A stretch of DNA of 45,185 nucleotides from positions 1 to 45,185 of the forward strand of contig CAMWMS010000003.1 of NCBI GenBank assembly GCA_947175435.1. The letters run 5' to 3'. Positions 11,942 to 22,880 of this stretch are shown here, one piece after another. Every line of letters starts with the position of its first letter. Position 1 is the stretch's first letter. Source of the DNA: an uncultured Lachnospiraceae bacterium (GTDB lineage: Bacteria > Bacillota > Clostridia > Lachnospirales > Lachnospiraceae). Position numbers and translations under genes: made by a program. The notes beneath the pieces are model-generated. The model was not told where the DNA came from, did no database searches, and saw only the letters and a list, made by a program, of their open reading frames with translations.

Positions 11942-12397
11942 TCAGTTCTGTAAGCCGCTTGTCCGCAATGGTTCCATTCCGTGCTCTTTGAGTATTTCAT
12001 TGACTTCGATGATATCTCCCGGATGTTCATTGAAAATAATCATCAGCAGAGCATCCCTTGGCAGCTTCGCATACAGTTCCGGCATCTCATATTTCTTCAA
12101 CGCCCGCTGTGTTTGTGCCAAAGACATTTCAGCCGCATAACATATCCGCAGAATGACATCTCTCTGCCTTGTTCTTTTTTCCCCGGACAGCAGTTTATAA
12201 CCATATCTTTCCGGGACATCCGCCCGCAAAAACACAAGCTGCTGCGTGAGCTTCTTTTCGCTGAAAATATTTTTCATATATACAGTAAAATCCCCATCAA
12301 TCAAGCATCCTGTATTTTCCTTGCAATAAGCATCAAAATTTTTTATATGCGTGCTTTGCAACACTTTTTCTAATTCATCTGTATTTTTCTCTCCCAT
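11942..12397 (-). CDS. putative HTH-like regulator paired with the Ser/Thr kinase
   Basis: A 151-residue soluble helical protein. The central part (PERYGYKLLSGEKRTRQRDV, ILRICYAAEMSLAQTQRALK) looks like an XRE-type fold in which a short basic turn replaces the usual motif, and the C-terminal LPRDALLMIIFNEHPGDIIE recurs in clostridial proteins encoded beside protein kinases. Start taken at the ATG with GGAGG six bases upstream. It is divergent from the kinase gene across 54 bases, a spacing that suits shared control. It may be a kinase substrate or partner (inference). I do not have a firm family name for it. Confidence 0.6.
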   Translation of the reverse strand: MGEKNTDELEKVLQSTHIKNFDAYCKENTGCLIDGDFTVYMKNIFSEKKLTQQLVFLRADVPERYGYKLLSGEKRTRQRDVILRICYAAEMSLAQTQRALKKYEMPELYAKLPRDALLMIIFNEHPGDIIEVNEILKEHGMEPLRTSGLQN

Positions 12398-12451
12398 AAG
12401 TTTCCTCCATCTGATACAATGTAATAACAAACCTTTGAAAGGAATGATAGC

Positions 12452-13525
12452 ATGGATTATGCCAGCCGTCTTGAAATTTCATACTACAATACCATTGCGG
12501 CCATAAACAGTGCGCATAAAATATATTTGGTTCAGCACCGGGAAAGCGAAAAAATATACATCAAGAAAATATTGAATGTATACAATCCGCATATATACGA
12601 ATATTTGATGGAACACCATATAACCGGAATTCCCAGGCTATATAACGTATATGAAGAAAACGGACAGCTCATACTGATTGAAGAATTTATTTCTGGTGTA
12701 TCGTTGCAGGAAATGATTGATGAACGGATGCTTACACTTGATTTAGTTATCCAGTTTATGGAAGAACTGTGCGACATACTGGAAAAACTGCATATTCTTA
12801 ACCCGCCCATCATTCACAGAGATATTAAGCCCTCAAACATTATTATTACACCCTATAACCACGTCGTCTTAATTGATTTTAACGCAGCAAAGTATTTAAC
12901 TGATACTGCTGACCATGATACCGTACTGCTTGGGACAAAGGGATATGCCGCCCCTGAACAGTATGGATTTGGTTTTTCCACTCCCCAGACTGATATCTAT
13001 GCTTTGGGCATTTTATTAAAGGAATTTTCTTTTGCTCTGCCGGTTCCGACAAGTATATTTGATGCAATCATCAGAAAATGTACCGAGATGAATCCGTCTG
13101 ACAGGATGAAAACTGTACAAGAATTGAAAATCGAAATCGAAAAATTGCAAACCCGCAATGGCAAAAAACCGCAGCATACAACCGAGTTTGCCACATGGAA
13201 AAATTTTATTCCGCCCGGTTTTAGGACAAAAACCCCGTGGAAAATGTTGACTGCCTCCACCATATACTTATTTATCTTTTGGATCTGTTTGTCAATGGAA
13301 GTAAAGGATGTAACTGTTTTCCACCTTTGGTTGGAAAGATTTACCGTTTTATTCATGATGCTTTCTATTGTCTTTTGCTGTTTTAACTACCGCAATATAC
13401 ACCGATTCATTCCCTTATGTGCGAATAAGTATCGACTTATACGTTACATAGGAGTACTGATTTTAAATTTTGCAGTAGCTTCCTCGTTGCTTTTTGCAAT
13501 GCTTCTGTTGGAATCCATCTTTTGA
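12452..13525 (+). CDS. membrane-anchored Ser/Thr protein kinase
   Basis: A 357-residue Hanks-type kinase. The N-lobe is short and lacks a clear glycine-rich loop; K38 in IYIKKI is the likely ATP lysine. The catalytic loop is HRDIKPSN (D124), the metal motif is DFN instead of DFG (D142), and the activation segment ends GTKGYAAPEQYG. After residue 255 there are three hydrophobic segments (about 266-282, 298-312, 331-355), so the kinase domain is N-terminal and cytoplasmic, with no PASTA repeats. It is not the usual PrkC/StkP cell-wall kinase. AAAGGA ten bases upstream supports the start. A terminator follows at 13564. Confidence 0.88.
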   Translation: MDYASRLEISYYNTIAAINSAHKIYLVQHRESEKIYIKKILNVYNPHIYEYLMEHHITGIPRLYNVYEENGQLILIEEFISGVSLQEMIDERMLTLDLVIQFMEELCDILEKLHILNPPIIHRDIKPSNIIITPYNHVVLIDFNAAKYLTDTADHDTVLLGTKGYAAPEQYGFGFSTPQTDIYALGILLKEFSFALPVPTSIFDAIIRKCTEMNPSDRMKTVQELKIEIEKLQTRNGKKPQHTTEFATWKNFIPPGFRTKTPWKMLTASTIYLFIFWICLSMEVKDVTVFHLWLERFTVLFMMLSIVFCCFNYRNIHRFIPLCANKYRLIRYIGVLILNFAVASSLLFAMLLLESIF

Positions 13526-13563
13526 CTTTCGTTTTTTTATTATAACATGCTTTTTTCTTTTCG

Positions 13564-13600
13564 TTGCCACCGGTATGGTGGCAATTTGCTTTTGCTTTTT
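13564..13600 (+). terminator. rho-independent terminator of the kinase gene
   Basis: TTGCCACC (13564-13571) and GGTGGCAA (13577-13584) pair around a 5-base loop, followed by TTTGCTTTTGCTTTTT. It separates the kinase from the downstream SPFH/TIR operon. Confidence 0.85.
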
Positions 13601-13635
13601 CAGCATTGCAAGCTAATTACGTAATGTATGCACAG

Positions 13636-13664
13636 TTGACGCAAGAATACATTTGTATTATAAT
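13636..13664 (+). promoter_or_regulatory. near-consensus sigma-A promoter of the RHH/SPFH/TIR operon
   Basis: TTGACG (13636-13641), a 17-base spacer and a perfect TATAAT (13659-13664) lie 27 bases before the start of the ribbon-helix-helix gene. It is one of the strongest promoters in the window and is followed by no terminator until 20154. Confidence 0.85.
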
Positions 13665-13880: not shown

Positions 13881-13978
13881 GACTGAGAAGAATTTTGATA
13901 TAAAAATATTATTATGAATTGATGAAACGATAAATCAACAAGATGATTTAAGTTTAAAAGGAGAAATTGCGGACTGGT

Positions 13979-15217
13979 ATGAATCAGCAGATAAAGAGAG
14001 AAGGCCTTGTTAGTATTATCAAATATGATGAGGACAATGAAACACTTGTATGGAAGCATCCGGCAGATGATTTTAAGATGGGTACGCAGTTGATTGTCCA
14101 TGAAAGCCAGGAAGCCGTATTTTTCAAGGATGGGCGTGCATTGGATGTATTCGGAGCGGGACGTTATACACTGGAAACCCAGAGGCTTCCGCTTTTGGAT
14201 CAGTTTTTCAAACTTCCCTCCGACACGGAGAGAACTTATCACTCAGAAATATATTATATTAATCTGGCGACACAGATGGGAATTAAATGGGGGACAGATT
14301 CTAAAATTCGCTTTCTAGAGCCGCGTTCTGGAATGCCCATAGAAATCGGTGCCTGCGGAGAGTTCAACATTCGTGTAAGCAATTCCAGAAAATTGTTGTT
14401 GAAGGTCATCGGCACAGCGTCCGGTTTTGATCGGCAAAATCTGCTTGGCGAAAACGGAGAGAAAGGATATTTTCAATCTCTGGTGATTACGCAGGTGAAA
14501 AGCAGCTTGGCTCAGATCATTAAAGAAGAAAATATCAGTATTTTAGAGATTGATGCGGAGCTTTTACGCCTTTCTGATATTTTGAAAACAAAGATCAACG
14601 GTATGTTTGAAGAGTACGGATTAATTATGCCGGACTTTTTTATTAATCGGGTGATCACGCCGGATGATAATCCGAATTATCGCCGGATGAAAGAACAGTA
14701 TGCACAACAGTATCTTCTCGTTAAACAGGAAGAAATCAGGCGTAAGGAAGCGGAAGCAGTGGCGGAGCGTAAGGCGGTAGAAGCACAGACAGAGGTGCGG
14801 CTTAAGGTCATCGAGGCACAGGGCAGTGCGGAAATCCTGAGGATTCAGAAGAGCGCAGAGGCGGAAGGATATAAGATGCAGGCGGCTGCGGAAGCAGCGG
14901 AAATGCAGATGAAGGGATATACTTATCAGCAGGAGACATCACGCTTAGTAGGAATGGAAGCCATGAAAAACGGCATCGCAAACGGTGCAGGTACGACATC
15001 GGTGCTGGGGGATCTGGCCGAACTCGGTGTAGGACTGGGGGCTATGGGCGGTGTTATGAACATGACAAAAGATGCTCTTTCTCCGTTATCCAAAGAGGGT
15101 GTAGAGATGGGACAGGCAATGGGTGAAATATTACAGACGGCTTGGAACTGTCCTTGCGGTCAGTCCGGAAATACCGGTAATTTCTGCAGTAACTGTGGCA
15201 GAAAAAGGAGCGAATAG
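13979..15217 (+). CDS. SPFH-domain protein with C-terminal zinc ribbon
   Basis: A 412-residue protein of the SPFH (stomatin/prohibitin/flotillin) group sometimes labelled virion core protein-like. The N-terminal part (GTQLIVHESQEAVFFKDGRA, VFGAGRYTLETQ) starts the SPFH fold, which runs to about residue 225. A charged coiled coil (235-300) and a Gly/Met-rich region follow, ending in a zinc ribbon with C391, C393, C403 and C406. It has no membrane helix; relatives form membrane-associated oligomers. AAGGAG lies 15 bases before this ATG; a TTG at 13967 is only three bases from it, so the exact start is uncertain. The next gene begins after five bases. It probably scaffolds the membrane proteins of the operon (inference). 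Confidence 0.85.
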   Translation: MNQQIKREGLVSIIKYDEDNETLVWKHPADDFKMGTQLIVHESQEAVFFKDGRALDVFGAGRYTLETQRLPLLDQFFKLPSDTERTYHSEIYYINLATQMGIKWGTDSKIRFLEPRSGMPIEIGACGEFNIRVSNSRKLLLKVIGTASGFDRQNLLGENGEKGYFQSLVITQVKSSLAQIIKEENISILEIDAELLRLSDILKTKINGMFEEYGLIMPDFFINRVITPDDNPNYRRMKEQYAQQYLLVKQEEIRRKEAEAVAERKAVEAQTEVRLKVIEAQGSAEILRIQKSAEAEGYKMQAAAEAAEMQMKGYTYQQETSRLVGMEAMKNGIANGAGTTSVLGDLAELGVGLGAMGGVMNMTKDALSPLSKEGVEMGQAMGEILQTAWNCPCGQSGNTGNFCSNCGRKRSE

Positions 15218-15923: not shown

Positions 15924-18707
15924 ATGTCTGTATTGATATGTAAAATGTGCGGTGGTGATCTGGAGATCAAAGAGGGCATGACAACCGCAAGATGCCCTTA
16001 TTGCGGAACGAATCAGACATTGCCGAAGTTTGATGATGAAAAACGCCTCAGGCTGTATGATCGGGCGAATCATTATAGGCGAAGTAATGATTATGATAAA
16101 GCGATGGCGATGTATGAGCAGATTCTTGAAGAAGATCAGACAGACAGCGAGGCTTACTGGGGAATTGTCCTATGCCGCTACGGGATAGAGTATGTGGATG
16201 ATCCGGCGACACATAAGAAGATTCCCACTGTCAATCGGGCACAGTATACATCAATTCTGGCGGATGAGGATTACAAGGCAGCGCTTCGATATGCCGACGC
16301 AGTTCAGGCAGGAATCTATGAACAGGAATCGAGAGTTATAGATACGATCCAAAGAGGCATTCTGCAGGTATCACAGAGAGAAGCACCTTATGATATTTTT
16401 ATCTGCTGTAAGGAGACGGATGATAACGGAAACAGGACAAGAGACAGTGTACTGGCTGACGAACTGTATTACCAACTGATACGCAATAATTTCAAGGTAT
16501 TTTTTGCCAGGATTACACTGCAAGATAAACCGGGAGCAGCCTATGAGCCGTATATTTTTGCTGCGCTCCACTCTGCCAGGGCTATGATTGTTGTCGGAAC
16601 TTCTCCGGAAAATATTCAGGCCGCCTGGGTTAAGAACGAATGGAGCAGGTATCTTTCTCTGATTAAACGTGGGGAGAAAAAAGTATTAATTCCGGCATAT
16701 CGTGATATGGACCCTTATGATTTGCCGAAAGAATTTTCTCATTTACAGGCACTGGATATGTCAAGACTGGGATTTGTGCAGGATCTGATTTATGGAGTTA
16801 ACAAGATTTTTGGCGATAACACACGGAACGGAATAAGAGAAATCGCAAACCGGAATTCAGAGGTCACGATGGATCAACAAGAAACTAGAATCCCGATTCC
16901 TATAGAGCAAAAAAAGCGTAAAAAGGAAGAGAGGACTCGTGGAAAGCAAATAGGCATTGCGGTGGGAATTATTCTGGTTTCGGTAATTGCGCTGGTAGAT
17001 GTCGTGAACAACTATAAGCAGCTACGAGCATCTTATGAGAAAAATTTAGCGCCATTAATAGATGAAACAAAAAATGAGGAAGAGACAGCGAAAGAGACTT
17101 TCACCGCTCCAAATGTGGAACAGACAGATCAAACGCAAGAAGTTGCTGATTTTACCGGCGTAATGGAAGAGTTTGTTTCCAGTGTGTATAAACGTCCGGC
17201 AAAAGATGTCCCTGAAAGTGAGCTGGCAAAGATGCAGCAGCTTATTATAAAGCATGATCGGGAATGGTGGGAGATTGGATACAGTTTTGAACCGCCGACG
17301 GATAATGTAATCAAAGGTTTTGAAACAGATGCAGAGGATGATTCCGGAGATGGCGTTGTGTGGATGACCTTTTATGTTGAGGAGGGTATCAGTTTGCGCG
17401 GCCTGTCTCGATTTTCCAATCTGAAAAAGCTGGATGTAAGCGCTGTGGTTGATGCAGAAGATATTAGAGGGCTTCCATTGGAGAGTGTCAGCGCTTATTT
17501 TGCGAATCCGGCACAAGCTGCGAACATGCTGGATGATCCGGGATTGGTCAGAGAATTAGGATTAAATGGCAGTTTAAAAAATTTGAACGGGATCGAAGCA
17601 TTTGAAAATTTAGAGACGCTGTACATTTCTTATTGTGAGCCTGACAATATTGATGCGCTGATACATGTAAGGCATTTGAAAAATCTTTTTTTGAAAAGTG
17701 ATGCATATTTGACAGATTTTGCAGTTCTTGGGAAACTTCAGGATTTGGAAAAGCTGTATTTGCGTGCAGATGGACTAAAGTCTATTAAATTTGTCAGCAG
17801 CCTGAAACATCTGGATACATTGAAAATAGAATGCGGAGAGCTGAGTGCCCTCTACGGATTAGAGGAGTGCGAGACACTAAGGTGTTTGTCGATTTCTAGA
17901 TGTATGGAATTAAAAGAGGTGAGTGCCGTGTCGGAGCTGATAAATTTACAGGAGCTTTCTTTGGAAATACCTTACGGCTGTCCCGAACCGGAATTAGATA
18001 ATCTGACAGAATTAAGAAAGCTGACGCTTGATGGTTTTGAAGACTGTTCCTTCATCGAGAACATGACTAATTTGACAGAGCTTAATTTAATTTATTGTGA
18101 TTTGCCGGAAGGAGCAGATTTGTCAAAATTAACTTCATTAAAGAAACTTTTCTATGACCACAATGCGTCAAATGAGGTAAAGATTGCTGATATAGAATCG
18201 TTTCAAACGTTGGAAATTTTGGATATTCAAGGTTCAATATGTTATGACGATATATCGGGAGTCTTCCGAATGCCAAACCTTAAGGAATTAGATATCAGTA
18301 GTATGTACTGTGAGCTAGATTTTGATGCTATTACTGAAAATACCATGTTGGAAATATTGCATATGAATAATACTCAGTTGATTACAAATACGCGGGTTGA
18401 GCGCTTTAACGGAGCATTAATCGGGGGCTGGGATTATGTAGCATTGGATGAACATATGGATTTTCTTAAGAAATTTCCGGAACTTAAGGAATTGTATTTG
18501 AGTGAAGACGAATTGACGGATCTTAACTTTGCAGCAGGAATGTCTTCTTTGGAAATTTTGGATATTTCAGAGAATTATATTACAGATCTGAAACCGCTTG
18601 CAGAGCTGCCATCGCTTCAGAAAGTGATTTGTGCAGGCAATCCGATCGAAAACGAAAATGTGCTTCGGGATTCTGTGGTGGTTATCACGGAATTAGAGGA
18701 AGAATAA
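15924..18707 (+). CDS. zinc-ribbon / TPR / TIR / transmembrane / leucine-rich-repeat receptor-like protein
   Basis: A 927-residue protein. Order: zinc ribbon (C6, C9, C24, C27), a TPR-like helical part (about 40-150), a TIR domain (155-295: box 1 YDIFICCKETDD; AWVKNEWSRYL with E239 where TIR NADases have their catalytic Glu; LIPAYRDMDPYDLP), a basic stretch (KKRKKEERTRGK) and one membrane helix (342-362), a linker, then about 430 residues of leucine-rich repeats (e.g. LKKLDVSA, LEILDIQG, LKELDISS, LEILDISENYITDLKPL). The zinc-ribbon/TIR half is a known family in gut Firmicutes. The positive-inside rule puts TIR in the cytoplasm and the LRRs outside. GAGGAG precedes the ATG. It may sense an extracellular ligand and signal through NAD+ breakdown (inference). 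Confidence 0.9.
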   Translation: MSVLICKMCGGDLEIKEGMTTARCPYCGTNQTLPKFDDEKRLRLYDRANHYRRSNDYDKAMAMYEQILEEDQTDSEAYWGIVLCRYGIEYVDDPATHKKIPTVNRAQYTSILADEDYKAALRYADAVQAGIYEQESRVIDTIQRGILQVSQREAPYDIFICCKETDDNGNRTRDSVLADELYYQLIRNNFKVFFARITLQDKPGAAYEPYIFAALHSARAMIVVGTSPENIQAAWVKNEWSRYLSLIKRGEKKVLIPAYRDMDPYDLPKEFSHLQALDMSRLGFVQDLIYGVNKIFGDNTRNGIREIANRNSEVTMDQQETRIPIPIEQKKRKKEERTRGKQIGIAVGIILVSVIALVDVVNNYKQLRASYEKNLAPLIDETKNEEETAKETFTAPNVEQTDQTQEVADFTGVMEEFVSSVYKRPAKDVPESELAKMQQLIIKHDREWWEIGYSFEPPTDNVIKGFETDAEDDSGDGVVWMTFYVEEGISLRGLSRFSNLKKLDVSAVVDAEDIRGLPLESVSAYFANPAQAANMLDDPGLVRELGLNGSLKNLNGIEAFENLETLYISYCEPDNIDALIHVRHLKNLFLKSDAYLTDFAVLGKLQDLEKLYLRADGLKSIKFVSSLKHLDTLKIECGELSALYGLEECETLRCLSISRCMELKEVSAVSELINLQELSLEIPYGCPEPELDNLTELRKLTLDGFEDCSFIENMTNLTELNLIYCDLPEGADLSKLTSLKKLFYDHNASNEVKIADIESFQTLEILDIQGSICYDDISGVFRMPNLKELDISSMYCELDFDAITENTMLEILHMNNTQLITNTRVERFNGALIGGWDYVALDEHMDFLKKFPELKELYLSEDELTDLNFAAGMSSLEILDISENYITDLKPLAELPSLQKVICAGNPIENENVLRDSVVVITELEEE

Positions 18708-18761
18708 GCAATTAATTAAGGATTATAAACAAAACTCAATAAGAAAGGGTAAGGTGTATTT

Positions 18762-19967
18762 ATGAAAAGGAGAGCGAGAAACGTAATAGCAGCTGCCATA
18801 ATGCTTGCATTGGTGCTTGCAGGATGCGGTAGCAAAGAGGTAGTTATGAAAGAATTTACCTCTGAGGATGAGACCGTAAGTATTCAGTTGAATGAGAAGT
18901 GGAAGCAGGAAGATATAGGAACCGGAGCCGAAGGCTGGATTGCGGCAGCCAGCGAAGATGATTCTGAGGCAGTTATGGTTATGCAGATGGCAAAAAATAT
19001 TTATGGTGCAAATGTTATTGACATGGATAATTGGAAAGATATGATAAACGCTTCCTATCCGATGTCAGAAATGACATTAATTGATAATCCGTCCGTTCAG
19101 GGTATGGATGTGGCGGAAACCTATAGCTGTACAGTAACCATTGAAGATATCAGTGGTAATGGACGTATTCTGTATGGTGAGACAGAATATGCCTATTACA
19201 GCATTTTATATGTAGCTATCAAAATGAATGATGCAGAAGTAGAATATTTTAATAATGTATGCGGATCGTTTAAGGAGAACGCCCCGGAAATTGAAGAAAC
19301 ATCAGCGGCGGAAAGTACAGATACGATTCAGTGGTTTAATAATACATGCGCTGTTCTGACAGCAGCTAACCGTTGGGATTACACTTTGTTTGGCGGGGCG
19401 CCTGCAGATGAGAACAGTAAAAGTATGGTTCAGAATCTTCTGAGCGAGTGGTGGGATGTTACAGATCATGAAACAGCGGAGGAGACAATGGACTGGCTTT
19501 TAAAGGAGGGACATCGTGTCTCTTTTGCAGAAGAGATGGACATGTTGGCAGAAGCTGGGCTCGCGGATGTTTCTGAAGCAGAGAGGGTTGACTTGATTCT
19601 TGAGAGCTTTGATGTAAGTGAGGAGGAAGCGCAGAATTACTCAGATTGGTTTGCTTTTTATGAACAGTATGGTTCAGACGCTGCGGCAGGATGGGATTAC
19701 AGCCGTGCGATGTCGCTTCTGGGATACTATTATCTCGCGGGATACTATACCGAAGAAGAGGCTTTAGATAAGTCGCTGGAGACTGCGGAGATTATCCAGA
19801 ATACCTTTGATTCGTGGGATAGCCTTATGGAAAGTTATTTTGTAGGATATGAATATTGGGCAGAGGAGAGTAGTGATGAGCGGCGCGAGATTTATGAAGA
19901 AATCAAAGCGGCTTCTGACAGCCCGTTTCAGTTAGAGTGGGGAATGGCATTTGAGAAAACGTGGTAG
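18762..19967 (+). CDS. DUF1266 domain lipoprotein
   Basis: A 401-residue lipoprotein: basic N-terminus, hydrophobic core and lipobox LVLAGCGS with C22. Residues 30-180 form a beta-rich domain (TIQLNEKWKQEDI-like start, SIQLNEKWKQED). Residues 195-400 match DUF1266: EWWDVTDHETAEETMDWLL, EGHRVSF, AAGWDYSRAMSLLGYYYLAG, YYTEEEALDKSLE and SWDSLMESYFVGYEYWAE. DUF1266 function is unknown; it recurs beside envelope and signalling genes. The gene follows the TIR-LRR gene after 54 bases and precedes the micropeptide by 82 bases, in the same transcript. Located outside the cell, it could act with the predicted external LRR part (inference). Confidence 0.85.
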   Translation: MKRRARNVIAAAIMLALVLAGCGSKEVVMKEFTSEDETVSIQLNEKWKQEDIGTGAEGWIAAASEDDSEAVMVMQMAKNIYGANVIDMDNWKDMINASYPMSEMTLIDNPSVQGMDVAETYSCTVTIEDISGNGRILYGETEYAYYSILYVAIKMNDAEVEYFNNVCGSFKENAPEIEETSAAESTDTIQWFNNTCAVLTAANRWDYTLFGGAPADENSKSMVQNLLSEWWDVTDHETAEETMDWLLKEGHRVSFAEEMDMLAEAGLADVSEAERVDLILESFDVSEEEAQNYSDWFAFYEQYGSDAAAGWDYSRAMSLLGYYYLAGYYTEEEALDKSLETAEIIQNTFDSWDSLMESYFVGYEYWAEESSDERREIYEEIKAASDSPFQLEWGMAFEKTW

Positions 19968-20307: not shown

Positions 20308-22287
20308 ATGGCATCTAATGATTATGCAACAGCGTTAAAACAGGGACGACGCAGTTATCGGACTGCACTCACTAAGGGCGAATACCCTTATCTTCCGGTA
20401 CTGGATGAAATGATATCTTATACCGAGGTGGCATCAATTGAAAATTTGGGAATCATGGATATTCCGTTATCTAAGATCGTAGGAACAAAGACAGTGGGGC
20501 GGTCTAATGCGTTCGCCAATAATTTTATGCCACTTCTTCCCGAGAACTCAGAATTTGGGATGAAATGGGGATCGCTTTATAACCATCAGATTGATGACGG
20601 AATCAATGATCCGATCATCGCTTATGAATTTATGAATCAGTTTTATGTGCAGGAAGGCAATAAACGTGTCAGTGTTATGAAGTATTTGAAAACCTACAGC
20701 CTTTCCGCAAGCGTTACCCGTCTGGTTCCTAAGAAATCAGATGATAAGGAAAACCGTCTGTATTATGAGTTCCTGGATTTTTATGAGGTGTCACAAAGTT
20801 ATGATGTCTGCTTTTCTAAAGAGGGGAGTTATAAGAAACTCCTAAAACTTATGGGAAAAGCGGAGGATGAAGTCTGGAGTGATGATGACAGAATGGATCT
20901 GCATTCTGCCTGCTATAGCTTCGAGCTTGCATTCAACAAGGCACATGGTGAGAAATTGGACATCAATGTCTCCGATGCCTTTTTGATTTATGTAGAAATA
21001 TACGGATACGATAAGGTTATAGATGAAACAGAACAGGAAATAAGTCGTTCACTCCAGAAAATATGGACAGAGATCACTCTTGCCGATCAGGGCAGTCAGG
21101 TAGAGCTTGTGCAGGCTCCTGAACAGGTAAAATCCTCTCTGCTGAATAAACTGCTTCCGACGGGAATTCCGGATTCTCTGAAAATAGCATTTATTTATAT
21201 GAAGACACCGGAAACTTCAAGTTGGGCATATGCGCACGAATTGGGAAGATTATATCTGGAGCAGGCGTTTGACGGTAAAATAGAGACGATGGCTTTTGAT
21301 AAAGCTGACACGGAGGAGGAAGTGGAAGAGGCCATTGAGCAGGCGATTGCGGCAGGCTGTGAGTTGATTTTTACGACGGCCACGCAGATGATAAACCAGA
21401 GCGTGCGTTCCGCGGTTCATCATCCGAAAGTAAAAATATATAACTGTTCGATCAAGATGTCCTATTCCTCTATCTGTACATATTATGCAAGAATGTATGA
21501 GTCTAAGTTCCTGATGGGTGCTATTGCGGCGGCGCTGTCCAGAACCGACAGGCTCGGATACGTGGCGGATTATCCGATCTATGGCACTCTGGCGAACATT
21601 AATGCATTTGCTTTGGGGGCTAAAATGATCAATCCCTATGTGCAGATTCATTTGGAATGGACGAAGGTTAAAGGAGTAGATGCCAGAGAAAGACTGGAGC
21701 AGGAAGGAATTGTCTTTGTATCTGACAACGATATGATTACTCCAGAGAGTGCTTCCAGAGCATATGGACTCTATGCGAAAAGAGAAGACGGAACCACTGA
21801 AAATCTTGCAACACCGATCTGGGACTGGGGAAAATTCTATGAACAGATCATTAGAAATATTTACAGCGGCGGCAGCACGGAGGCAGAGGCACAGAAGGGG
21901 AAGAAGGCGGTCAATTACTGGTGGGGAATGTCGGCGGATGTTATTGATGTCATCTGCTCAAAGTCTATGCCTCACGGAACTAACAGACTTATTGAATTTC
22001 TGAAAAGTTCGATACGCGCAGGAGCTTTTCATCCTTTTGACGGTCCGATCTATGCACAGGGAGGCGTTGTACAGTGCGAGAAAGGTGAGAGTTTGGGACC
22101 TGAAGAGATTATTACAATGGATTGGCTGGCAGAGAATGTGATCGGAAAAATTCCGGAATTAGACGAACTGACGGATGAAGCCCGGACACTTGTAAACTTT
22201 CTGGGTGTTAAAGTAGATGAATCCGGCACTGATAAAAGCGCCGATACCCAGACTGACAGGTCAGAAGGGAACGGAGGGCTTGAATGA
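20308..22287 (+). CDS. cytosolic ParB-like / BMP (PnrA-like) nucleoside-binding fusion protein
   Basis: A 659-residue protein without signal peptide or membrane helix. Residues 45-125 resemble a ParB N-terminal-type domain (MDIPLSKIVGTKTVGRSNAF; VQEGNKRVSVMKYL). From about residue 290 it follows BMP/PnrA-type ABC substrate-binding proteins (LKIAFIYMKTPETSSWAYAH, ELIFTTATQM, KFLMGAIAAALSRTDRLGYV, FHPFDGPIYAQGG), which outside cells bind purine nucleosides. Lack of export means it is a cytosolic binder, perhaps a sensor. AAGGAAGG seven bases upstream supports the start. Its stop overlaps the ATG of the metallophosphoesterase (ATGA), implying coupled translation and a shared task such as handling a nucleotide-like ligand (inference). 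Confidence 0.85.
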   Translation: MASNDYATALKQGRRSYRTALTKGEYPYLPVLDEMISYTEVASIENLGIMDIPLSKIVGTKTVGRSNAFANNFMPLLPENSEFGMKWGSLYNHQIDDGINDPIIAYEFMNQFYVQEGNKRVSVMKYLKTYSLSASVTRLVPKKSDDKENRLYYEFLDFYEVSQSYDVCFSKEGSYKKLLKLMGKAEDEVWSDDDRMDLHSACYSFELAFNKAHGEKLDINVSDAFLIYVEIYGYDKVIDETEQEISRSLQKIWTEITLADQGSQVELVQAPEQVKSSLLNKLLPTGIPDSLKIAFIYMKTPETSSWAYAHELGRLYLEQAFDGKIETMAFDKADTEEEVEEAIEQAIAAGCELIFTTATQMINQSVRSAVHHPKVKIYNCSIKMSYSSICTYYARMYESKFLMGAIAAALSRTDRLGYVADYPIYGTLANINAFALGAKMINPYVQIHLEWTKVKGVDARERLEQEGIVFVSDNDMITPESASRAYGLYAKREDGTTENLATPIWDWGKFYEQIIRNIYSGGSTEAEAQKGKKAVNYWWGMSADVIDVICSKSMPHGTNRLIEFLKSSIRAGAFHPFDGPIYAQGGVVQCEKGESLGPEEIITMDWLAENVIGKIPELDELTDEARTLVNFLGVKVDESGTDKSADTQTDRSEGNGGLE

Positions 22288-22880
22288 AAATTTTAGTGCT
22301 TGCTGATCAGAAATCTAAATATTTGTATGATTTCTATGAACCGGATAAATTAAAGGATATTGACCTCATTATTTCATGTGGGGATCTGTCACCGGCATAT
22401 CTGTCTTTTTTCGTCACACTCTGCAATGTGCCGTTGCTCTATATTATGGGCAACCATGATGAAAGATATGAAGAGACACCGCCGGAAGGATGCATATGTA
22501 TTGAGGATGATATCTATGTGCATGAGGGAGTCCGTATCCTTGGTTTAGGCGGTTCCATGGAATATATACCGGGAGCAAGCAATCAGTATTCAGAACAGAA
22601 AATGAGAAGACGGGTGTGGAAGCTGAAATATAAGTTATGGAGGAAGAAAGGGTTCGACATTCTTGTAACCCATGCACCCGCTTATCATATTAATGATCTG
22701 GAGGATCTTCCCCATCGGGGTTTTGAAGTTTTTCGGACGTTGATGGAGAAATATGAACCGAAGTTTTTCTTTCACGGGCATGTACATGCCAATTATGGCA
22801 GGGGATTTAAGCGGACAGACACATATGGTAAGACAACTATAGTGAATGCCTATGAGTACTATATTGTGGATTATTTGTAA
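22284..22880 (+). CDS. calcineurin-like metallophosphoesterase
   Basis: A 198-residue metallophosphoesterase. Motifs seen: D8 in LVLADQK (motif I, normally DxH; here the His is Lys10), GDL with D34, GNHDE (N57, H58), VTHAP and GHVH. The DxK form recurs, as I recall, in a Firmicutes subgroup, so the change does not by itself mean loss of activity, but one metal site is altered. It overlaps the upstream BMP fusion by four bases, with GGAGG inside that gene's end as binding site. Substrate unknown; cyclic nucleotides, nucleotides or phosphodiesters are all possible. A terminator follows at 22936. Confidence 0.88.
   Translation: MKILVLADQKSKYLYDFYEPDKLKDIDLIISCGDLSPAYLSFFVTLCNVPLLYIMGNHDERYEETPPEGCICIEDDIYVHEGVRILGLGGSMEYIPGASNQYSEQKMRRRVWKLKYKLWRKKGFDILVTHAPAYHINDLEDLPHRGFEVFRTLMEKYEPKFFFHGHVHANYGRGFKRTDTYGKTTIVNAYEYYIVDYL

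Follow-up and report, generated by a model that had tools for sequence, protein, structure and literature searches.

The question raised by this locus is whether a bacterium can carry, in one chain, the layout of a Toll-like receptor (TLR), with a TIR domain inside the cell, one membrane helix and leucine-rich repeats (LRRs) outside. Such a layout had been proposed from the sequence alone (the original prediction) for the gene at positions 15924..18707 of the window, the 45,185-nucleotide stretch analysed here (contig CAMWMS010000003.1 of assembly GCA_947175435.1, from an uncultured Lachnospiraceae bacterium). We found that the gene is one of a family, encoded beside an SPFH gene, in which the TIR half stays constant and the C-terminal half is exchanged, and this family is the larger finding. 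We tentatively read the window protein as a single-pass receptor at the cell surface, seated on a membrane platform of SPFH protein, with a TIR domain that would act on nicotinamide adenine dinucleotide (NAD+); this reading is quite possible, though some way from secure. The parts of the gene are listed below.

15924..18707, + strand: candidate TIR receptor gene, 927 residues; a single open reading frame (ORF) spanning these exact bounds, ATG start, GAGGAG upstream
15939..16007, + strand: zinc ribbon, residues 6-28 (Cys6, 9, 24, 27); the four Cys invariant in 47/47
16053..16163, + strand: tetratricopeptide repeat (TPR), approximately residues 44-80; TPR models below the Pfam cut-off here, above it in some relatives
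16383..16823, + strand: TIR domain, residues 154-300; Pfam TIR_2 at 2.3e-9, matched residues 173-281
16638..16640, + strand: E239 codon, the WxxxE glutamate at the position used by NAD+-cleaving TIRs (NADases); invariant in 47/47, also present in a TLR TIR
16911..16946, + strand: basic juxtamembrane stretch, residues 330-341; 8 lysines plus arginines (K+R) among the 20 residues that precede the helix vs. 3 after
16950..17006, + strand: single membrane helix, residues 343-361; Kyte-Doolittle mean 2.83, helix there in 15/15 genus sequences
17007..17393, + strand: stalk and cap, residues 362-490; within the genus the stalk averages 29% and the cap 51% pairwise identity
17394..18653, + strand: internalin-type LRR solenoid, approximately residues 491-910; Pfam LRR_4 at 2.5e-20, with Foldseek matches

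From N- to C-terminus the 927-residue protein thus consists of zinc ribbon, TPR, TIR, basic stretch, membrane helix, stalk and cap, and LRR. Pfam and Kyte-Doolittle analysis bore out the layout of the original prediction, which had also placed W235 and E239 correctly; the TPR was missing from it. Membrane helices were called by Kyte-Doolittle alone at a threshold of 1.9, and the second-best hydrophobic segment of the protein reached only 1.04, so the claim of a single helix held. AlphaFold2 modelled residues 1-300 at a mean predicted local distance difference test score (pLDDT) of 85, and comparison of the models with known folds recovered the fold of the TIR superfamily and the LRR fold, as had been expected. 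In the full-length model the LRR residues 491-820 had block means of 69-93 and the cap region 411-460 block means of 78-92; residues 461-480 (38-50) and 861-927 (35-57) were modelled at low pLDDT. The top Foldseek matches of the LRR model were a Roco LRR (1.2e-11) and InlA (2.1e-11), with TLR7 ranked 47 and TLR9 ranked 49.

Key residues of the inside half were constant. Among 47 aligned zinc ribbon-TPR-TIR halves (the window protein counted, three short matches excluded), the four zinc-ribbon Cys, W235 and E239 were invariant. The complete architecture occurs in 15 of 77 genomes of the genus, the window's own counted, and the 14 other copies are 51-97% identical to the window protein overall, 73-98% over the first 300 residues and 47-100% in the LRR part. 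A homologue search for chains of TIR, helix and LRR thus returned 14 other genus genomes, and this recurrence, together with the 47/47 invariance, indicates that the architecture is not a chance product. In the copy of genome G058 (L095; also L108) the LRR end runs on in another frame, and this copy is possibly damaged or misassembled.

Selection differed along the chain. The ratio of nonsynonymous to synonymous substitution rates (dN/dS), estimated from 11 pairs of which some dS values are near saturation, ran from 0.03 to 0.08 for the inside half, from 0.08 to 0.25 for cap plus LRR, and from 0.23 to 0.96 for the juxtamembrane stretch, helix and stalk. Eight consecutive 150-base intervals at 17250-18450 are 99-100% identical between the window and locus L086, vs. 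85-99% over the rest of the aligned region, and identity to L087 falls to 79-95% across 17250-18750. This pattern suggests that the LRR-coding half was likely exchanged recently by recombination between the window and L086.

How far does the family extend? A scan of named genomes with a profile of the TIR half gave at least 593 matched stretches, and at least 579 of them encode a relative. The family counts given here rest on 79 named loci kept among the matches listed (80 loci with one IMG/VR locus added), and on 77 complete relatives, a set that omits proteins truncated by the end of a locus and those whose TIR match was short. Among the matches listed, the kept loci are mostly from Clostridia (titles of Lachnospiraceae, Oscillospiraceae and Ruminococcaceae), many of them gut or rumen metagenome-assembled genomes (MAGs), and the closest relatives come from Lachnospiraceae MAGs labelled Mgla. 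One Coriobacteriaceae and one planctomycete title also occur among the kept loci, possibly from mislabelled bins. Family members are present in two isolates, Massilioclostridium coli and Anaerotignum sp. MSJ-24. Within the window's taxonomic family the zinc ribbon-TPR-TIR half was found in 26 of 348 genomes; seven of these show three or four matches each, fragments included. No match to the TIR half was found in 72,556 plasmid and 50,697 phage records, and one IMG/VR contig matches it.

The joining of the TIR half to a helix and an ectodomain had been considered unusual, and this proved incorrect: exactly one helix follows the TIR in 65 of the 77 complete relatives, several follow in 3 and none in 9. 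The LRR of the window protein is one of at least five C-terminal modules. Pfam assigned DUF6273 to the C-termini of 41 of the 77 relatives, LRR_4 (internalin) to 12, BspA LRR_5 to 5, B-repeat Flg_new to 4 and RCC1_2 to 4, counts that may overlap within one protein; one anonymous relative weakly matched C-type lectin. In a tree built from 110 TIR halves, whose bootstrap is not fully settled and which has several long branches, the C-terminal labels require 42 changes (minimum 7; shuffled mean 57.9), a number inflated by catch-all labels such as 'other', which holds some RCC1 and B-repeat proteins missed by the regular expression. The internalin-LRR proteins form a single clade (100/99). DUF6273 accounts for 24 changes, 13 of which are forced by well-supported branches, and BspA LRR appears in 5 places. 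Adjacent paralogues with close TIR halves bear different C-termini, for example L073 3937 and 14415. This family-wide swapping was absent from the original prediction. Three to four TIR genes stand in tandem at L068, L071, L073, L082, L130 and L168, and several of these arrays have different C-termini.

Two conserved genes directly upstream, also missing from the original prediction, complete the cassette.

13967..15217, + strand: partner gene 1, SPFH protein (Band_7_1, 2.6e-35), YdjI-like, with a C-terminal zinc ribbon and no membrane helix
15223..15909, + strand: partner gene 2, membrane protein of four helices (the 4-helix protein) whose C-terminal tail is charged; its hydrophobic segments lie at 10, 31, 73 and 95

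The 4-helix protein matched no Pfam family. In all 14 genus loci fetched an SPFH gene precedes the TIR gene, and 13 of them have the 4-helix gene (one copy short); in nine of the 14 the flanking genes are unlike those of the window. At 54 of the 80 loci a same-strand SPFH gene lies no more than four genes away (upstream in 50, downstream in 4), and 51 have the 4-helix gene. The 26 loci lacking SPFH include 14 with more than 5 kilobases (kb) upstream, only 3 with more than 5 kb on both sides, and one without a TIR ORF. Among the 348 genomes, 30 encode the 4-helix protein and 26 the TIR half, with both in 15 where about 2 would be expected (Fisher p 1e-11); the 4-helix protein is found alone in 15. 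Band_7_1 itself is widespread (270/348), and 13 of 29 SPFH relatives have a C-terminal zinc motif. In the genome of the window, which is 82% complete, the cassette gene is the one Band_7_1 match, and the one PspA match is located on contig C250 (the window is on contig C3), so pspA is absent from the cassette. Loci L180-L195 carry SPFH or 4-helix genes without TIR, and at 10 of these 16 loci a gene no more than three genes away encodes an N-terminal zinc-ribbon motif. The zinc ribbon-TPR part of the TIR protein may therefore be a docking piece, and the SPFH and 4-helix genes are perhaps part of a wider membrane module.

Several observations bear on the output of the TIR domain. In the fold comparison the TIR model was nearest to NADase TIRs, with SPARTA first and SARM1 next, and W235 and E239 form the WxxxE pair with the catalytic glutamate of NAD+-cleaving TIRs in all 47 halves. 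E239, placed correctly in the original prediction, fits NAD+ cleavage but does not mark out an NADase, since a TLR15 TIR aligns with Trp and Glu at the same places. Bacterial TIR outputs usually deplete NAD+. Eight hand-picked proteins were compared with Pfam: five, all cassette neighbours, match SIR2-like domains, three of them above the cut-off and two of these three also weakly AbiH, one matches FRG, one RCC1, and the 4-helix protein of the window none. The SIR2-like genes lie beside or among TIR genes (L122:10065-11024, L162:4090-5031, L148:2529-3827, L068:9526-10449 and L071:10771-11817), and the evidence from these neighbours leans towards an NAD-based defence. The FRG-domain gene (L073:6527-7471) lies within a TIR array.

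On which side of the membrane does the C-terminal half lie? The original prediction placed the TIR in the cytoplasm and the LRR outside by the positive-inside rule, and the charges agree with it. In the 65 single-helix relatives the 20 residues before the helix carry a mean of 7.7 K+R vs. 2.6 after it, with more before than after in 63 of 65. Three of the 65 stop 1, 2 and 38 residues past the helix and have no outside domain. The C-terminal slot of relatives holds modules known from surface or phage-tail proteins (DUF6273, B-repeats and BspA-type LRR), which speak for an outside place; DUF6273 has been described, in passages of PMC10743442, as a C-type-lectin-like domain of phage receptor-binding proteins. 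Among genus relatives of the window LRR, four ORFs have a lipobox-like N-terminus as judged by eye (L021, L022, L028 and L031). Two further single chains of the genus (L023:1465-3384 and L029:1069-2895, both on the - strand) join a kinase, a helix and LRRs related to those of the window, in a layout that resembles receptor kinases.

We infer the following course of events. The LRR domain would be exported and bind a protein or a surface ligand outside the membrane, and inside, the zinc ribbon-TPR part would dock on a scaffold that the 4-helix protein and its YdjI-like SPFH partner form. Once a ligand binds or the membrane is disturbed, the TIR domains would cluster, and the clustered TIRs would act on NAD+, either producing a signal nucleotide or depleting it. 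The purpose would most likely be the sensing of a phage, a toxin or contact with a neighbour at the envelope. What computation establishes is the set of domains, the single helix, the conserved Trp and Glu, the cassette and the exchange of modules. Beyond charge and module types, the reading draws on the dN/dS contrast between the halves, the partner genes and their co-occurrence with TIR, the NADase-like TIR model, the SIR2-like neighbours and the YdjI precedent.

A number of results count against this surface receptor. Concerning topology, the charge bias is weaker within the genus (more before than after in 13/15, a tie in L089, reversed in L088). The LRR half of the window protein has a cytosol-like Cys content of 1.94%: proteins without a helix average 1.80 (n=322), vs. 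0.98 for lipoproteins (n=17; 1/17 reaches the window value) and 1.06 for proteins with an N-terminal helix (n=19; 3/19). Nine relatives have no helix after the TIR (best segment 0.61-1.36), eight of them with a module all the same, DUF6273 in seven and BspA LRR in one (together L117, L123, L129, L134, L162, L169, L172 and L153). In these the module presumably lies inside the cell, and since it occurs there without a membrane anchor, the type of module alone is no proof of export. The genus LRR relatives L027 and L032 also lack any helix. The predicted topology was therefore supported by charge and opposed, for the LRR, by Cys content and the helix-free relatives. The exposed strand face of the LRR is not more variable than the loops (1.28 vs. 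1.29 bits, p 0.996, 12 sequences). Concerning output, the sole PDB sequence matched by the TIR profile is the TLR15 TIR (E 0.019), with its Trp and Glu aligned to W235 and E239, and no PADLOC-DB family matched the TIR, SPFH or 4-helix proteins at E 0.01. Concerning the partners, no SPFH gene is found at three loci with more than 5 kb on each side, and 11 of the 26 genomes with the TIR half have no detected 4-helix gene. The Cys objection is softened by the positions of the conserved residues, which sit in the LRR repeats (Cys649, 660, 708 and 796, conserved in 15/15), and by the four lipobox LRR relatives, which have 1.2-1.75% Cys.

The strongest competitor, which we nonetheless consider unlikely, is that the protein serves as an adaptor in envelope stress. 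It would be the membrane-anchored part of a surveillance complex of the PspA/YdjI type, with a TIR that, like those of TLRs and MyD88, serves assembly without catalysis, and an LRR that senses the cell wall and not an enemy. The C-terminal zinc ribbon of the SPFH partner, the single PspA gene elsewhere in the genome, the zinc-ribbon-motif genes near TIR-less SPFH and 4-helix genes (10/16) and the TLR TIR as only PDB sequence match all fit this proposal. It does not readily explain why Trp and Glu are invariant, why the TIR model is closest to NADase TIRs, or why SIR2-like genes are neighbours, and the repeated C-terminal swapping suits varied ligands better than a single wall signal.

It is improbable that the protein is instead a contact or kin receptor between gut bacteria, in which LRR and lectin-like ectodomains would attach to neighbours through their surface proteins or glycans, and the output of the TIR would alter behaviour without killing. 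Internalin-type LRRs, DUF6273 and B-repeats all occur in binding or surface proteins, and the lack of matches among the plasmid and phage records is also consistent with such a role; the usual depletion of NAD+ by bacterial TIRs and the SIR2-like neighbours, two of them weakly AbiH, point to abortive defence. Finally, the hydrophobic stretch could be an inserted anchor that does not cross the membrane, leaving both halves cytoplasmic and the LRR reading an internal partner, as the Cys content of the LRR half, the eight helix-free relatives with DUF6273 or BspA LRR and the weak charge bias of some orthologues would allow, but the strong bias family-wide, the B-repeat and BspA modules in the same slot and the lipobox-bearing LRR proteins among its kin make this quite improbable.

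The surface receptor can be compared with several known systems. It shares with animal Toll and TLRs an LRR, one membrane helix and a TIR predicted to be cytoplasmic. It differs in chain order, which is reversed as had been proposed (TIR-helix-LRR, with an N-terminal TIR and a predicted type II topology), in having a zinc ribbon, a TPR and an SPFH cassette, in the other C-terminal modules of its sister proteins, and in an LRR for which Roco and internalin LRRs outrank TLR7 and TLR9 in the fold search. Given the reversed order and the different partners, a fair description of the Toll-like comparison would be analogy, not membership. The NADase TIRs SPARTA TIR-APAZ, AbTir and SARM1 have the same fold with the WxxxE glutamate and are among the best structural neighbours. 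They are soluble or triggered inside the cell, whereas the window protein has a membrane helix and a C-terminal sensor-like module.

The PspA-YdjG-YdjH-YdjI system of B. subtilis likewise joins a membrane protein gene to one for a helix-free SPFH protein that has a zinc ribbon at its C-terminus; the window cassette lacks pspA and adds the TIR protein. B. subtilis has a Band_7_1 match, which is probably YdjI. It was reported, in part of PMC8581546, that YdjI with YdjG and YdjH recruits PspA to the membrane. One paper on the PspA-YdjI system, PMC11237479, does not contain the terms Toll, interleukin, TIR domain or LRR. The DUF6273 of phage tentaclins is the module found in the 41 cousins, and the window protein does not have it. 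Phage DUF6273 is diversified by diversity-generating retroelements (DGRs), according to passages of PMC10743442, whereas no DGR-like reverse transcriptase was found near the cassettes by a crude motif filter that was uncontrolled (no positive tried). A survey of TIR proteins, as far as covered by the parts of PMC7075850 consulted, has bacterial groups that mix domain architectures and does not show a TIR-helix-LRR protein; such a protein is not described in the consulted parts of PMC7159879 or PMC11237479 either. We found no report of one in the open-licence literature, which is weak evidence of absence as the searches were partly narrow.

The remainder of the window and genome contained other genes of interest. 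The kinase gene at 12452-13525 (+), which adjoins the cassette upstream and has C-terminal hydrophobic segments, was rejected as a part of the cassette because none of four close relatives aligns over 12000-13650; its PADLOC matches (mad6, PD-T4-6) look like generic kinase matches. The DUF1266 gene at 18762-19967 (+) has a lipoprotein-like start and is next after the TIR gene in only 5 of 12 named genus loci. A metallophosphoesterase gene at 22284-22880 (+) matches the PADLOC candidate family PDC-S10 (1.7e-18). The two other TIR_2 proteins of the genome have different layouts. One gene of this genome (L001:301-2106, +) encodes a C-5 cytosine DNA methylase domain fused to a TIR domain, and another (L003:1132-3234, +) an N-terminal TIR with a ThsB_TIR match, a hydrophobic stretch judged by eye and, further on, a weak match to the PQQ_2 propeller.

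To our knowledge, the known bacterial TIR defence proteins sense intracellular events. For the family as a whole a wider proposal is possible, though doubtful: gut Clostridia may hold an un-named repertoire of TIR pattern-recognition receptors, in which the inside unit, zinc ribbon-TPR-TIR on a scaffold of SPFH protein, stays constant and the outside sensors (LRR, lectin-like, B-repeat or RCC1) are exchanged freely, with several receptors in tandem in some genomes. This would be a bacterial counterpart of a Toll repertoire, reading phage or neighbour contact outside and answering with an NAD-derived signal. If true, Toll-style surface sensing exists in bacteria too, from an independent joining of parts, and the SPFH link would connect TIR signalling with membrane surveillance.

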